Origin: Bacteroidota bacterium
GTDB lineage: Bacteria; Bacteroidota; Bacteroidia; Flavobacteriales; Flavobacteriaceae
DNA: 64,000 nt
Assembly (NCBI GenBank): GCA_027619415.1
Contig: JAQCFO010000002.1
Coordinates: 1-64,000, forward strand
Direction of reading: 5' to 3'
Under the pieces are notes generated by a model. That model had not been told where the DNA came from. It saw only the letters and a program-made list of their open reading frames with translations, and did no database searches. Below are positions 6,810-12,669 of this stretch, one piece after another. The translations under genes were made by a program, and so were the position numbers. Position 1 is the stretch's first letter. Each line of letters begins with the position of its first letter.

Positions 6810-6827
6810 GGTAAAATTAATGTTAAG
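6810..6827 (-). promoter_or_regulatory. putative PHO-box direct repeat upstream of the PiT gene
   Basis: On the minus strand this reads CTTAACA-TTAA-TTTTACC: two 7-bp units with an 11-bp period. The first unit and its spacer are identical to those before the TonB receptor. Spacing to a -7 element is less exact than at the other three genes: TAATTTTA follows the second unit at about the same distance, one base off. Confidence 0.45.
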
Positions 6828-6839
6828 AAAGTTCATAGT

Positions 6840-7838
6840 TTATATTTTAAATTCTGCGTTTAAAGACAAGATTGATTTATTATTTATTATTGAATTATCA
6901 TGGTTAAAAAACTTGTAATTTAAATTAAATTTTACTCCTTTTACTGCTTGATATTGAGCTCCAAACATTAATAAGCTACCGTCATTGTCATAATTCCAGG
7001 ATCTTGATTCATTCGTAAGAATGTTTGAACTTATTTGATCGTATCTAGTAAATACTTCATAATTATTAGACAATTTTTTTGATCCATAAATTGAGAATCC
7101 ATCTCTATTATGATCATCTTCAGCATTTTTATATGTTCTGGCATTTTTAATTTTACCATATTCCACTCCAACTCTAAAATCAATACTATTATATCCCAAG
7201 AAAATAGAATTATTTTTCATTGATTTGATATTTTCTGAACGTTGAGAATCCATATATATTTTTCCCGAAAGCTGCTTTGAAAAATTATATATAAAACTTG
7301 TTCCCATTTTTTGGTGTCCATCATCATCTTGAATAGATTTATAACCCTCTCCGTTTAAAACAAATAAGTTTATTTTAAATTTTGGATTAACAGTAAATTC
7401 TGAATTAAACCCAAGGTCTGCACTGGCACCAAATTTAAATTCATTTAGAAAGCCTTTATATGCATATCGATAGCCCCATAAACTTTCTTGATCATTAAAC
7501 TGTTTGTTTCCAATTAAACCCATACTAAGTTTTACTTTGGGATTTAATTTCCAGTCCAATTGAGCAATTTTAACATAGGCTGTATAGGCACTTCCAGCTG
7601 AATTAGAACCTATATCGTATGTTATTTTAGCTGAAATATCTTCACTAAAAGTGTAAGTATATCCTAGGTAAACTTTTTTAAGCTCAAAAGCACTTTTCTG
7701 TTCAATGTCTTTTGTGAAATCATTATGATAATTCCAAAAAACCTTAAAATTAGGTTTGCCAATTGAACTAAAATCATCCTGAGCACTTGTATAAGCCAAG
7801 AAGAATAAAAAAATAAGTACAAGTTTTGTTCTTAACAT
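6840..7838 (-). CDS. Outer-membrane beta-barrel porin, OprO/OprP-like
   Basis: The 332-residue exported protein has a signal peptide (MLRTKLVLIFLFFLAYTSAQ). The rest alternates short polar and aromatic strands typical of an outer-membrane beta-barrel, such as FELKKVYLGYTYTF and AKITYDIGS, and it ends LSLNAEFKI with no extra domain. The overall pattern suggests the Bacteroidota porins annotated as phosphate-selective porin O/P. Substrate choice cannot be read from sequence. Its place between a PiT phosphate transporter and a TonB receptor, with a repeat-array promoter upstream (7852-7924), supports phosphate or anion passage across the outer membrane. A different small-molecule porin remains possible. 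Confidence 0.7.
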   Translation of the reverse strand: MLRTKLVLIFLFFLAYTSAQDDFSSIGKPNFKVFWNYHNDFTKDIEQKSAFELKKVYLGYTYTFSEDISAKITYDIGSNSAGSAYTAYVKIAQLDWKLNPKVKLSMGLIGNKQFNDQESLWGYRYAYKGFLNEFKFGASADLGFNSEFTVNPKFKINLFVLNGEGYKSIQDDDGHQKMGTSFIYNFSKQLSGKIYMDSQRSENIKSMKNNSIFLGYNSIDFRVGVEYGKIKNARTYKNAEDDHNRDGFSIYGSKKLSNNYEVFTRYDQISSNILTNESRSWNYDNDGSLLMFGAQYQAVKGVKFNLNYKFFNHDNSIINNKSILSLNAEFKI

Positions 7839-7851
7839 CTTTAATTTTTAA

Positions 7852-7924
7852 CAAATTTAATTGAAATAGACAATTCCAATGTTAAGAAATTATTTTGTTA
7901 CTAAATAGTTAATTTAATATTAAC
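7852..7924 (-). promoter_or_regulatory. putative PHO-box array and promoter of the porin gene
   Basis: Minus strand: units GTTAATA, ATTAACT and AGTAACA (7924-7896) follow one another with an 11-bp period and AT-rich 4-bp spacers. After nine more bases comes CTTAACA (7886-7880). TAAATTTG, a full match to TAnnTTTG, follows with its TTTG at 7855-7852. The 24 bases between the last unit and this TTTG equal the spacing at the TonB receptor and beta-helix genes. Confidence 0.6.
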
Positions 7925-8124
7925 AAAGATAGGAGTATCTTTTTTTTGAATTAAAAGTCATGTATTTAAGTGTTTTTTTGATTAGTAAAAAATTTAATTA
8001 CAGTTCAGGTATAATAATTGGTTAGGATTTTGCCATAGATAAAAATAATTGTAATAAAGGGCTTTATTATAGTGTGCTTATTTTAATCGTTTAATATTCT
8101 AAATAAAAAATTAAATTGTTCAAA
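7925..8124. other. gap downstream of the TonB receptor, weak hairpin only
   Basis: The gap between porin and receptor is 286 bases; its left part holds the porin control region. The remainder has a short inverted repeat, TAATAAAG / CTTTATTA (8052-8069), with a two-base centre, which may act as a weak terminator for the receptor gene. I see no coding frame or RNA gene. Confidence 0.3.
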
Positions 8125-10929
8125 CTAAAAATTAACATTATAACCAATCGAAAAAGTTCTGCCTAAATCTCTAAATGAAAATATTCTGTTTACTGCTTTA
8201 AACGACTCGTAATAACTTTCTTTTTTACTATCTAATAGATTTTCAATCTTTACTGTAAATGTTTTGTTTTTATTTTCTCCGATTTTTTTAGATAGATTAA
8301 AGTTTAAGCTTTCAAATGGTTGAGTATATACATCAGGGGCAAAACCTGTTCCAACAACCTCTAAGGTTTTCCCTTGCATATTAAAAAATAATCCTGTAAT
8401 TAATCCATTTTCATCTTTATAATCTATACTAGAATTGATTAAATAAGGAGATTGCCCTTGAAGCCTTCTGTATGTTCCTAAAGATTCTCCAACTCTTAAA
8501 CCATTTGTCCTTAAGTTTAACTCGCTTGTTCCATATTCTTGTTTGGATTCAATTATAGAAGCATTAATATTTATTCCTATAGCCTGACTTATTTGTTTTC
8601 TCATTTCAAATTCTATTCCAAAAACTTTTGCATTACCTAAATTTTTTGGTTGAAAATTTTCAGTTGCAGATTCATAATAGCTAAGTTCTATTGGGTCTTG
8701 AAATGATTTATAAAACCCACTTACTGCAAACAGTTCATTTTTGTCTCCAAAAATCTCAAATCTCAAATCTAGATTATCTATGTAACTAGGTCTAAGCTTA
8801 ATATTCCCTATAAAAGTCATATTTGAAAGTGGATCAAAAATTTCTGCAATAGAAGCCTCTTTAAAAGATGGTCTGGCTGTTGTTTTTGAATATGAAAAAC
8901 GTATGTTAGAATTTTCTTTTAAAGAATATATTAAATTTGTCGATGGGAATACATCTAATTTGTCAATTACTTTCTCATCTTGATAATTTATTGTTCCTCC
9001 ACTGTTTTCGCCAGAATATTTTTGAATAAATTTTTCAGCTCTAATTCCTATTACAGATTTTAATTTAATTCCTATTTTAAATTCTATAGAAGAATAGCCT
9101 GCTAATGTTAATTGATTGGCATCATAATTTTTTCCTTTTTCAACCCCACCATTTGTATAAAGGGCAATATGATTTCCAAAAATATTATTAGGAGACCATA
9201 AATTTGACGATTTAAGTAAATCATCAGGATTACCGTTATTTAATATTCCCATATTATCAGGAACATTGATTCTAAAACTGTAAATATCGTACTCTCTTTC
9301 TTTAAAGGAGCCGAATGTCCCAAATTTTAATTTAGAATCGTTATTAAATAACTTCAATTTCCTTTCTAAATCTAATTTTCCTACCACATTTAATTCATCT
9401 AAATTTCGCCAAATTCTAGTTGGCTTATCATTTTCTTTAATTTGAAAAGTGCCATTATCAACGACTTCAAAAGAAGTAGTTCGAACATCTTTGTCTTTTA
9501 TAGATGATTTTGTTGGAGAAAGTTTCCAATTTAATTTCCAGGCACTATCTTCGTTAAATGTATGAGTTCCAGAAATTAATATATTAGTAATAGCTCGTTG
9601 AGTATAATCTAAGTTGTGTTTTAAAAGCTCTTTAGAATCGTTTAAGTTCACAGTTTGATCAAAAATACCTGCAGAAGATTCTCCATTTTGAATATGTAAT
9701 ATATTTAATTTATATTTTGACAAACTAGTTTTAAATGAGAAACCACCCATTGCGCTTAAAATAACAGAGTTTTGACCTAATGGGCCATTCTGAGTTCTGT
9801 TTTGTGATAACTGAAAAATTTTTGAATCAGCTTCCTTGTAAAATGTATTGTTTTGAGATTTTTCATAAAAATCAGTAGTATTTTTATAACTAAAAGACCC
9901 AAAATATCCAAGCCTCATATCACTTCCAATTGTTTTTTGATTTCCTCCTGAAATACTAAAACTATAATCCCCTAAACTTGTTTTTTTTAAAGCGGACATA
10001 TTAGGATTAAACTTATTAGTGACTTCACTTATTTTAGGACTATTAATTCCTTCTAGCACACTATAACCTTGATTAGGATTAACTGGAATTGACCTTAAAC
10101 CATCGTCAAAGCCTATAAAGTCTGTATTACTAGACACGGATGATAAATAATTATTATTGTAATGCATCTTAGGATTGTAAGCTGAACTAACAGATATTGA
10201 AAGTCGTTTAGAATTAGGAAATTCTTTAGTTAATACATCTACAATTCCACCAGTAAAATCTGCTGGCATATCTGCTGTTGCGGATTTAATAACAATTATA
10301 TTATCTAAAATATTAGTTGGAAAAATATCCATTTGAATAGTATTTCTATCGGGATCTAATCCTGGAATATCAATACCATTTAAAATAGATTTAGTATACC
10401 TGTCCCCAAGGCCTCTTACGTAAACATATTTACCTCCCTGAACAGAAACCCCAGGCACTGATTTGACTGCTGATGCAATATTTGAAGCTCCAGATGATTT
10501 GATCCGTTGTGATGATAAACCATCAACTAAGCTTACTGATTTTTTTTGAAACTCCAATACCGATGTTTCAGTGTTTTTACTAGCACTAACAGAAATAACA
10601 ACTTCATCTAAACCTTGAGCTAGTGTATTCATTGTTACATTTACAACTGCTAACTCTTGACTGCTTACTTTTACATCGCTGATTTCAAGAGTTTCATATC
10701 CCATAAATGAAAACATTAATGTATAAACACCTTCACTTAGTTCAATCTGATAATTTCCATCAAAATCTGACGTTGTTCCAGTACCCACCTCTTTCACTAT
10801 TATATTAGTAAAAGGGACAGGATCTTGGAATTCATTGTCGATTATAACTCCTCTAATCAACCCTGATTGGGCATTAAGACTAAAAACGGAAATAAACACT
10901 AGAAAAGTGTTAAGTAATAGATTTTTCAT
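8125..10929 (-). CDS. TonB-dependent outer-membrane receptor with carboxypeptidase-regulatory-like domain
   Basis: This 934-residue outer-membrane active transporter has a signal peptide (MKNLLLNTFLVFISVFSLNA). An N-terminal CarboxypepD_reg-like domain follows (about 24-115; IRGVIIDNEF, GTTSDFDGNYQI). The plug domain (about 125-235) carries YVRGLGDRYTKSILNGIDIP, and a 22-strand-type barrel ends in FSIGYNVNF with a terminal Phe. It draws energy from TonB-ExbBD. There is no SusD-type partner beside it; instead a surface beta-helix lipoprotein lies immediately upstream on the same strand, separated by a perfect 17-bp hairpin. Its own promoter and repeat elements are at 10942-10988. The substrate is unknown; the neighbours suggest a phosphate-containing compound. 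Confidence 0.9.
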   Translation of the reverse strand: MKNLLLNTFLVFISVFSLNAQSGLIRGVIIDNEFQDPVPFTNIIVKEVGTGTTSDFDGNYQIELSEGVYTLMFSFMGYETLEISDVKVSSQELAVVNVTMNTLAQGLDEVVISVSASKNTETSVLEFQKKSVSLVDGLSSQRIKSSGASNIASAVKSVPGVSVQGGKYVYVRGLGDRYTKSILNGIDIPGLDPDRNTIQMDIFPTNILDNIIVIKSATADMPADFTGGIVDVLTKEFPNSKRLSISVSSAYNPKMHYNNNYLSSVSSNTDFIGFDDGLRSIPVNPNQGYSVLEGINSPKISEVTNKFNPNMSALKKTSLGDYSFSISGGNQKTIGSDMRLGYFGSFSYKNTTDFYEKSQNNTFYKEADSKIFQLSQNRTQNGPLGQNSVILSAMGGFSFKTSLSKYKLNILHIQNGESSAGIFDQTVNLNDSKELLKHNLDYTQRAITNILISGTHTFNEDSAWKLNWKLSPTKSSIKDKDVRTTSFEVVDNGTFQIKENDKPTRIWRNLDELNVVGKLDLERKLKLFNNDSKLKFGTFGSFKEREYDIYSFRINVPDNMGILNNGNPDDLLKSSNLWSPNNIFGNHIALYTNGGVEKGKNYDANQLTLAGYSSIEFKIGIKLKSVIGIRAEKFIQKYSGENSGGTINYQDEKVIDKLDVFPSTNLIYSLKENSNIRFSYSKTTARPSFKEASIAEIFDPLSNMTFIGNIKLRPSYIDNLDLRFEIFGDKNELFAVSGFYKSFQDPIELSYYESATENFQPKNLGNAKVFGIEFEMRKQISQAIGININASIIESKQEYGTSELNLRTNGLRVGESLGTYRRLQGQSPYLINSSIDYKDENGLITGLFFNMQGKTLEVVGTGFAPDVYTQPFESLNFNLSKKIGENKNKTFTVKIENLLDSKKESYYESFKAVNRIFSFRDLGRTFSIGYNVNF

Positions 10930-10941
10930 TAATTTATCTTT

Positions 10942-10988
10942 GCAAATATCTACTTCACTTAGATATTTAATGTTAAGCTAAGGTTAAC
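10942..10988 (-). promoter_or_regulatory. putative PHO-box pair and promoter of the TonB receptor
   Basis: Minus strand: GTTAACC-TTAG-CTTAACA (10988-10971) are two 7-bp units with an 11-bp period. Then come 18 bases and TAGATATTTGC, with TTTG at 10946-10943, exactly 24 bases after the last unit. The ATG follows 13 bases after that TTTG. The same region also folds as two perfect inverted repeats: 10944-10952 with 10960-10968, and 10966-10976 with 10984-10994. Confidence 0.55.
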
Positions 10989-10990
10989 AT

Positions 10991-11027
10991 TAAAAAGCCC
11001 TGTCTTATTTTAAGACAGGGCTTTTTA
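10991..11027. terminator. perfect 17-bp hairpin terminator below the beta-helix gene
   Basis: Arms 10991-11007 and 11011-11027 (core AAAGCCCTGTCTTA) pair without mismatch around a 3-base T loop, and the stem is flanked by A and T runs on both sides. It lies between the stop of the beta-helix gene and the receptor promoter, so it should end or attenuate the upstream transcript and leave the receptor to its own promoter. Confidence 0.9.
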
Positions 11028-11048
11028 ATTAATATAAAAATGAATTTT

Positions 11049-12557
11049 TTAGAATGCAGATTTGTTATTAGCAAATGTCCAAGCAAAGTCAGAAACTGTA
11101 GCTCCAACTGTTTGAGCTCCCAGCATTACATTTGTTGCAAATATAACTCCATCTTTATTTTTTGCATTTTCAAAATTAGCATCTGGAGAATCAGATTTGT
11201 CATCAAATATTTCTCCCCCAACTAAAGAATCATCAATAGGAACAACGATTTCAATACTTGAAAAGTTTAATGTTCCATCAGAGAAGTTAGTGCTATCAGC
11301 AGTTGCATCAAGTTCGAAATTAGCCCCTTTTGCAAATCCATATGCATATACTTTAGTTACAGCACCAAGAGCACCTTTTCTGAAATCAGCATATGAACTA
11401 GTACTTTCATCAGTTGCTATAATAGTTATATTTTCTAAAGTGAAAGAAGCTTTCATTGATCCTTCAGGACCATCTATTTCTAACCCATGATCTGAAGCTT
11501 TAGTAAGAATAACTATTGAATTGCTAACTTTTCCCGCGTATGATTGGTCGATATCTAATCCATCATCTCCTTGCCCCCATACTAATAAGTTCGAAGCATC
11601 TACCGTTCCTCCAAAGAATTCTACTCCATCATCAACATTTGCTACAACTTCTACGTTAGAAATAGTAGTTCCATTCCCAACTCCACCTAGAGTTAATCCG
11701 TTAATTTCATTATCAGCACCTATTGAAGAACCACCATGACGTATAGAAAGATATTTTACAGTTCCTGAATTGTCAGCAGTATCTGACCCTCCATATAAAC
11801 CTTTTGTTTCAGAAGCAGCAATACCTTCTATTTGATATTCACTAACATCTCCTTTAAAGGATCCAGGAGCTTTTCCTAAAATTAGCAATCCACCCCATAA
11901 TCCTCTATTGTCAACTGTAAGATTTGAACCATATTTTTCACCGACTTTAATGTCGTCAGCAATTGAAGTCATAACAATTGGCTTATCAGCAGTTCCTTGA
12001 GCATCAATTTTCCCGCCTCTAGCAATACAGATAAAAGAAGCATCAGTACCAGTGCCACCATCAGCTTTTATTATTGTTCCAGCTGGGATAGTTAATGTAG
12101 CACCATCAGCAATAAATACTCTCCCTTTTAAATTCCAAATTTTATCGGCTGTTAAAGTTTTGTTTTTAGTGTAAGTTCCATTTAAAATAAAAAACCCATT
12201 TACAGTTACAGTTACTGTTGATGGAGCACTGTCTGTATTACCATCGTTTGCCTTATAAGTAAAAGTGTCTATTCCATCTGCATTTTCATTTGGGGTGTAT
12301 TTAGCAATATTTTCTGTAATAACCACTGTTCCTAAAGTAGGAGGAGTAACTATAGAAAAAGTCAAAGCATCGTAATCAGAATCTGTGGCAACTAATGTGA
12401 TGTCTATAGACTTTCCCTCTGAAACAGAAGCATTTAAGTTTTGTGACACAGGAGCAGCATTAATGTCTGTTGATGTATCATCATCATCACTACATGCGGT
12501 AAACAATAGCATTCCAGAGATTAAAGTAAAAATGGGAAATTTTAAAAATGTTTTCAT
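11049..12557 (-). CDS. Surface-exposed lipoprotein with Ig-like and right-handed beta-helix domains
   Basis: This is a 502-residue lipoprotein. The lipobox LFTAC puts the lipid on C22, and the following SDDDD matches the lipoprotein export signal described for surface lipoproteins of Bacteroidota. Residues of about 33-118 form a cadherin/Ig-like (Big_9-type) module (VATDSDYDALTFSI, DGIDTFTYKANDGNTDS). From about 120 on, short repeated rungs (LTIPAGTIIKADGG, ISNVEVVANVDDGVEFFGG) indicate a right-handed parallel beta-helix. No polysaccharide-lyase catalytic motif is recognised. Such proteins beside TonB receptors are often mis-named multidrug transporters. Its promoter carries the longest repeat array in the locus, five units. 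I infer a binding or processing partner of the receptor; the activity is unknown. Confidence 0.8.
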   Translation of the reverse strand: MKTFLKFPIFTLISGMLLFTACSDDDDTSTDINAAPVSQNLNASVSEGKSIDITLVATDSDYDALTFSIVTPPTLGTVVITENIAKYTPNENADGIDTFTYKANDGNTDSAPSTVTVTVNGFFILNGTYTKNKTLTADKIWNLKGRVFIADGATLTIPAGTIIKADGGTGTDASFICIARGGKIDAQGTADKPIVMTSIADDIKVGEKYGSNLTVDNRGLWGGLLILGKAPGSFKGDVSEYQIEGIAASETKGLYGGSDTADNSGTVKYLSIRHGGSSIGADNEINGLTLGGVGNGTTISNVEVVANVDDGVEFFGGTVDASNLLVWGQGDDGLDIDQSYAGKVSNSIVILTKASDHGLEIDGPEGSMKASFTLENITIIATDESTSSYADFRKGALGAVTKVYAYGFAKGANFELDATADSTNFSDGTLNFSSIEIVVPIDDSLVGGEIFDDKSDSPDANFENAKNKDGVIFATNVMLGAQTVGATVSDFAWTFANNKSAF

Positions 12558-12589
12558 TATAATTTTTTTATTTTGAGTTAATTAATGCT

Positions 12590-12669
12590 GCAAATAACTA
12601 GATTGAATTTAAATTAATTGTTAAATGAATATTATCAATAAGTCATTATAATGTGAACTTAATGTTATC
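12590..12669 (-). promoter_or_regulatory. five-unit putative PHO-box array and promoter of the beta-helix gene
   Basis: Minus strand, unit by unit: GATAACA (12669-12663), GTTCACA (12658-12652), AATGACT (12647-12641), GATAATA (12636-12630) and TTTAACA (12625-12619). Each is separated by four AT-rich bases (TTAA, TTAT, TATT, TTCA), a strict 11-bp period over 51 bp. Then 18 bases and TAGTTATTTGC follow, with TTTG at 12594-12591, again 24 bases after the last unit. GTTCACA resembles the Streptomyces PHO unit GTTCACC, and TTAACA the Bacillus PhoP hexamer. Confidence 0.6.

Follow-up and report, generated by a model that had tools for sequence, protein, structure and literature searches.

PHO-box-type elements at a fixed distance from the -7 element upstream of phosphate-uptake genes in Flavobacteriaceae, most likely read by PhoB

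The window analyzed in this study is a stretch of 64,000 nucleotides (G000:C17:1-64000) from a Flavobacteriaceae-level assembly of 1.66 Mb, which consists of 61 contigs and is 86% complete. It harbors four consecutive minus-strand genes coding for a beta-helix-type surface lipoprotein, a TonB-dependent receptor, a porin-like outer-membrane protein and a PiT phosphate carrier. Upstream of the first three genes, TTAACA-like units of 7 bp were found, and each time exactly 24 bases separate the last full unit from TTTG in the -7 element, as stated in a preliminary description of this DNA. These elements are most likely Bacteroidota PHO-box-type operators read by the regulator PhoB, which would bind at about -33 and place the locus under phosphate control. 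The probability of this reading, which is based on sequence comparison, is estimated at roughly 0.88. A PhoB-type activator of the locus acting at the -33 contact had been proposed before, and the comparison across species speaks in favor of it. The elements of the promoters are as follows.

12619 to 12669, minus strand: five PHO-type units of the lipoprotein promoter, with 68, 57, 46, 35, and 24 bases to TTTG
12608 to 12614, minus strand: worn sixth slot ATTTAAA of the lipoprotein promoter, 13 bases to TTTG (CTTTACA in relatives)
12591 to 12598, minus strand: -7 element of the lipoprotein promoter, GTTATTTG, first T of TTTG at 12594
10971 to 10988, minus strand: two PHO-type units of the receptor promoter, GTTAACC and CTTAACA, with 35 and 24 bases to TTTG
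10943 to 10950, minus strand: -7 element of the receptor promoter, GATATTTG, first T of TTTG at 10946
7880 to 7886, minus strand: single good PHO-type unit of the porin promoter, CTTAACA, 24 bases to TTTG, 13.3 bits
7852 to 7859, minus strand: -7 element of the porin promoter, TAAATTTG (consensus), first T of TTTG at 7855
6810 to 6827, minus strand: units formerly assigned to PiT, unsupported as its own promoter

The five units of the lipoprotein promoter (GATAACA, GTTCACA, AATGACT, GATAATA, and TTTAACA) stand in the strict 11-bp phase described before, and the pair of the receptor promoter was likewise found again. The sixth slot of the lipoprotein promoter had not been counted, and the gap of 24 bases given for this promoter is the sum of 13 and 11, the nearest slot being worn. 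For the porin, three units plus one had been described between 7880 and 7924. The only unit in phase is CTTAACA, and the slots at 35, 46, and 57 bases show 2, 4, and 2 mismatches to TAAC. The letters upstream of PiT resemble units, but TTTG is 19 bases away instead of 24, and the region before PiT falls outside the top ten of the 46 open reading frame (ORF) upstream regions of the window when these are scored with a matrix of relatives' PiT promoters. Both the own box of PiT and the additional porin units were rejected after slot-by-slot reading. Of the control formerly claimed for the whole locus, the parts concerning the lipoprotein and the receptor are supported by comparison and the porin box is weak, while PiT lacks an own box in the window and probably shares the transcript of the porin. 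The start codons of receptor and porin lie 17 bases past the first T of TTTG, which would leave both transcripts with very short leaders.

When TTAACA pairs are simply counted, a period of 11 bp does not stand out in the AT-rich window. The motif alone is thus unconvincing, and the case rests on other species. Upstream of the PiT genes of relatives (n = 29), a TAAC pair with the 11-bp period is present in 23 cases and is followed by TTTG after 24 bases in 19, the same gap as in the three window promoters; any other gap to TTTG was seen at most two times. A matrix was built from these 19 sites, leaving out the 10 upstream regions without the strict pattern. Its three best positions in the 64 kb, counting both strands, are the promoters of the lipoprotein (19.7 bits), the receptor (18.2 bits), and the porin (13.3 bits), which also lead the 46 ORF upstream regions, the fourth reaching 5.6 bits. 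In 60 equally long Markov sequences, the best position averages 11.5 bits (standard deviation 2.1, largest 17.4). The objection that matches might be no better than in shuffled sequence does not hold for the receptor and the lipoprotein, the scores of which exceed all 60 maxima.

Furthermore, a profile (R1) was made from 22 sites of relatives, 19 upstream of PiT, two of receptors, and one of a porin, none of them taken from the window. Among its 27 matches in the source genome, the receptor promoter is the best (E 2.4e-4) and the only one below E 0.05; the lipoprotein promoter was listed with E 1.2 and the porin promoter was not listed. The exact sequence TAAC-N7-TAAC-N25-TTTG occurs once in the source genome, at the receptor.

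The lipoprotein promoter was aligned in related flavobacteria, as had been suggested, and its array proved to be conserved. From the best 40 loci with lipoprotein homologues, 38 were used for a matrix; L037 and L057 were excluded because they lack a usable TTTG, and several of the anchors kept are doubtful. In the gapless alignment anchored on TTTG, six slots with a period of 11 bp are common to the 38 relatives. The slots at 68, 57, and 24 bases are rich in TAAC, the slot at 13 reads CTTTACA, and at 46 and 35 the deviation is itself conserved, with C in only 50 and 26%, respectively. Read pairwise, the slots form, to judge from their letters, a strong-weak-strong series. With the matrix of the 38 relatives, which excludes the window, the window promoter scores 40.6 bits, and the next best position on either strand 7.9. 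In 20 more distant lipoprotein homologues, the array matrix beats shuffled sequences in one case (L197) and the pair matrix in none, and period-11 pairs were found in 3 of 20 (0.8 expected, shuffle maximum 4). By eye, the region upstream of these distant homologues is taken up by the final part of a different coding sequence.

In the family, the exact element TAACA-N6-TAACA-N24-TTTG was found at 55 sites in 80 genomes, compared to 12 for the reversed pattern. Thirty of the loci, one per genome, were inspected (the 55 sites fall in 47 genomes). In 25 of them PiT starts directly downstream, and in one (L317) a homologue of the window porin carries the box and is followed by PiT, as in the window. 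Four loci show neither arrangement (L308, L310, L315, and L316), with a receptor in L315 and a lipoprotein in L310 by eye. As 10 of the 30 genomes had given sites to the profile, the 20 loci from genomes outside it were counted separately: 17 precede PiT, one porin-PiT, and two neither. A gene of about 400 codons is located between receptor and PiT in 15 of the fetched loci, and all three products tested are OprP-type porins (PF07396). The regions upstream of these genes reach at least 8 bits with the PiT matrix in 13 of 15 cases, vs. 4 of 159 other unlabelled ORFs. At the same threshold, 23 of the 29 PiT upstream regions, which are the source of the matrix and thus not independent, and 4 of 40 receptor upstream regions of relatives were recovered.

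The scan was extended to 149 genomes of the class, where the exact element occurs at 53 sites in 42 genomes, compared to 20 for the reversed pattern. Thirty of these loci were inspected, 20 of them by a Pfam search. The gene following the element encodes a PhoU_div/DUF47 protein in seven loci, PiT in three, PstS in one, and a TonB receptor in one. Leaving out three loci of the own family, the element precedes PhoU_div, PiT, or PstS in 10 of 27 loci, distributed across eight other families. The occurrence before phoU- and pstS-type genes, proposed as a check in the preliminary description, was thereby found in other Bacteroidia.

Two OmpR-type regulators are encoded in the source genome. The PhoB-like one (G000:C1:38383-39060) is located elsewhere than the window locus and beside a histidine kinase gene. 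It combines a receiver with a winged-helix domain (PF00072 and PF00486), and the adjoining kinase carries HisKA and HATPase_c domains. Of 120 genomes, 115 contain an orthologue (E at most 1.3e-76), and in at least 17 of the 120 no more than 4 kb separate phoB from a lipoprotein homologue, a distant one in about half of these cases. Among the 40 fetched loci, phoB is near the lipoprotein gene in 4. Upstream of phoB-like genes, an inverted pair GTTA-N7-GTTA, with A allowed for G in one unit, is present in 28 of 30 genomes, while 2.0 were expected and the shuffle maximum was 7. The pair occurs at period 11 only. In the source genome it is located 63 bases before the start of phoB. The forward PiT matrix found no match on the phoB promoters (best score 3.5 bits).

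A different OmpR-type regulator might read the units, with the phosphate genes as just a part of its targets. The second OmpR-type regulator of the source genome has RprY as its best match, which is also below the cut-off, and TTAACA-like half-sites are not exclusive to PhoB. However, blind searching with the exact element led to genes of phosphate uptake, the pair recurs upstream of phoB-like genes, and phoB is often located in the same cluster. This alternative is therefore considered unlikely, and PhoB is kept as the regulator proposed here.

In Riemerella anatipestifer, the motif of PhoP contains TTTAACA, and the protein binds in front of the operon that encodes it (PMC9603813). Both the letters and the binding upstream of the regulator's own operon resemble what is proposed here. 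In contrast, direct repeats, a period of 11 bp, and a Pho box go unmentioned in the available part of that paper, which compares the motif with that of ArcA. In Flavobacterium johnsoniae, the cluster PUSIV comprises a TonB receptor, a beta-helix lipoprotein (IPR011050), and OprP beside phoBR. The receptor and the lipoprotein of this phoBR cluster are induced by phosphate depletion with log2 values of 8.0 and 9.9 (PMC8115612). The window resembles PUSIV in its receptor, lipoprotein, and porin genes but differs from it in the place of phoBR, which lies elsewhere in the genome, and in the type of its porin. Judged by cluster content, the window lipoprotein is regarded as a homologue of these low-phosphate lipoproteins (PMC8115612). 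The available part of the F. johnsoniae paper describes no promoter element and gives no match to "PHO box" or "promoter" (PMC8115612).

Several results weigh against the assignment to PhoB and phosphate. Two PhoB models (NCBIfam NF053854 and TIGR02154) match the regulator best, but its scores of 197.9 of 270 and 194.4 of 296 bits are below the curated cut-offs. The inverted pair is absent at 2 of the 30 phoB genes (L171 and L174), and genome G055, which carries the box before porin-PiT (L317), has no clear PhoB orthologue, this genome being 86% complete. According to the available part of the F. johnsoniae paper, OprP is not induced there (PMC8115612). Upstream of PhoX-family genes, which the proposed check had also named, the element is not clearly present: the pair was found in 5 of 30 cases (1.4 expected, shuffle maximum 5), period 9 also gave 5, and three loci of this set have almost no upstream DNA. 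PhoX (PF05787) is encoded in 30 of 120 genomes and not in the source genome. When one mismatch is allowed, the source genome contains 35 sites and as many for the reversed pattern, which leaves no excess of further sites over chance, and the stricter form TAACA-N6-TAACA-N24-TTTG has no match in it. Only 8 of 39 lipoprotein promoters of relatives reach 8 bits with the PiT matrix, which indicates that the PiT and lipoprotein promoter types differ. Finally, the 13.3 bits of the porin promoter are inside the chance range, and its box draws its weight from its position immediately upstream of one of the locus genes. The porin score, together with the lack of period-11 enrichment in the window, would suit a chance similarity in AT-rich intergenic DNA. 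Against this stand the conservation of the array, the ranks with the PiT matrix, the excess of the exact element, its association with PiT, and the inverted pairs at phoB. As an account of the elements as a whole, chance is extremely unlikely. It is refuted for the lipoprotein and the receptor, possible for the porin, and likely for the units of PiT itself.

According to the available part of a start-site map of F. psychrophilum (PMC9723704), TAnnTTTG is located at -12 to -5. Taking the start site from this element, the proximal unit ends at about -33. Phosphorylated PhoB would bind the 7-bp TTAACA-like units every 11 bp and, from the unit 24 bases before TTTG, could take over the role of the -33 contact. 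Three PhoB dimers could line up on the lipoprotein promoter, at strong, weak, and strong sites, and one on the receptor promoter, while the porin promoter with its single good unit would give a joint transcript of porin and PiT. The surface lipoprotein, its TonB receptor, the porin, and the inner-membrane PiT carrier would thus be made when the cells starve for phosphate. Of 36 PiT promoters, 19 of which are the matrix sites, 31 have G at -12, 34 deviate from the consensus at this position, and 2 contain TAnnTTTG, a composition that would make for a weak core promoter needing PhoB at -33. This idea fails for the porin, since its -7 element TAAATTTG matches the consensus.

The inverted orientation of the pair at phoB and its larger distance from the start show that the geometry varies among promoters, and PhoB could instead act mainly as a repressor at high phosphate, or the inverted pairs could chiefly mark a repressor site. 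However, the fixed gap of 24 bases to the -7 element is as for activators contacting the polymerase, the -12 base is non-consensus in 34 of the 36 PiT promoters, and, in the available part of the paper, the homologues in F. johnsoniae are induced (PMC8115612). Repression is very unlikely on these grounds, and activation by PhoB at -33 is preferred. Going further, an undescribed operator grammar of the Bacteroidia can be proposed, the chances of which we hold to be about even. An 11-bp TTAACA pair would be locked 24 bases before TTTG. In PiT promoters of the Flavobacteriaceae, the -7 element would begin with a conserved G in place of T (31 of 36), which would keep the promoter silent unless PhoB takes over the -33 contact. 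Surface genes of high output would carry three dimer sites in tandem, of strong, weak, and strong type, and the pair at phoB would be inverted for feedback.

The PHO box of Escherichia coli, the operator of PhoB, consists of 7-bp direct repeats of CTGTCAT with 4-bp spacers and thus a period of 11 bp, and PHO box units differ among phyla. The elements described here share with it the 11-bp direct repeats, which were found for the lipoprotein and the receptor but not for the porin with its one unit, the fixed distance over the upstream core promoter element, and the occurrence ahead of phosphate-uptake genes. They differ in the unit, the relatives' consensus being TTAACA-like and not CTGTCAT, in a -7 TTTG in place of the -10 element, in the six-slot arrays of the lipoprotein promoters, and in the inverted pair at phoB. 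The PhoP box of Bacillus subtilis has a TTAACA-like unit and a period of 11 bp as well, but belongs to another phylum and promoter type, whereas a fixed 24-base gap to TTTG is characteristic here. In the literature searched, no full operator was found in Bacteroidota by title or abstract, a search that was partial and does not prove absence. The TTTAACA half-site is known for Riemerella PhoP from the available part of that paper (PMC9603813); for the full operator with its 11-bp period and 24-base gap, no description was found.

Bacteroidota are a major group in oceans, soils, and guts, and little on their phosphate control was found in the literature searched. An operator of fixed geometry allows candidate phosphate-starvation genes to be listed in any genome of the class. 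It points to poorly understood surface proteins linked to starvation, namely the beta-helix lipoprotein and its receptor, and provides a testable model of an activator at the unusual -7/-33 promoters of this phylum.

The genes of the locus and a further element between them are located as follows.

11049 to 12557, minus strand: gene of the beta-helix-type surface lipoprotein, 502 amino acids, with an N-terminal Big_9/cadherin-like domain (Pfam PF17963)
10989 to 11029, minus strand: terminator-like hairpin between lipoprotein and receptor genes, fold -26.8 kcal/mol, z -8.9, its end abutting the box of the receptor
8125 to 10929, minus strand: gene of the TonB-dependent receptor, 934 amino acids, with CarboxypepD_reg-like and Plug domains
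6840 to 7838, minus strand: gene of the porin-like outer-membrane protein, 332 amino acids
4471 to 6762, minus strand: gene of the PiT phosphate carrier, 763 amino acids (PF01384), starting 77 bases after the porin

Lipoprotein homologues, including distant ones, were found in 185 of 199 family genomes (E 1e-3 or better). The Pfam search assigned no family to the window porin, which shows a weak match to OmpO porins under the cut-off. The hairpin between the lipoprotein and receptor genes may set the ratio of lipoprotein to receptor. A perfect stem of at least 8 bases upstream of the receptor gene was also seen in 19 of 40 relatives, few of these receptors having a PHO-type box. In addition, a small gene on the opposite strand (about 104–121 amino acids) with a signal-peptide-like start and YYHDNG-type repeats was observed downstream of the receptor gene in all 12 loci viewed (L041, L044, L047, L051, L053, L056, L061, L063-L065, L067, and L070).

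Locus L174 of the phoB set belongs to genome G067, which is among the closest lipoprotein matches. In the PhoX set, L159 and L160 carry several TAAC units at 11-bp spacing. In the class scan, four exact elements lie within 7 kb of one contig in a distant Bacteroidia genome (G260:C12:995-7680, partly L332), which is perhaps a compact phosphate regulon. Finally, in L344 (G276:C233) the exact element is located 7 bases upstream of the gene of a choice-of-anchor I domain protein (PF22494), a candidate starvation protein.

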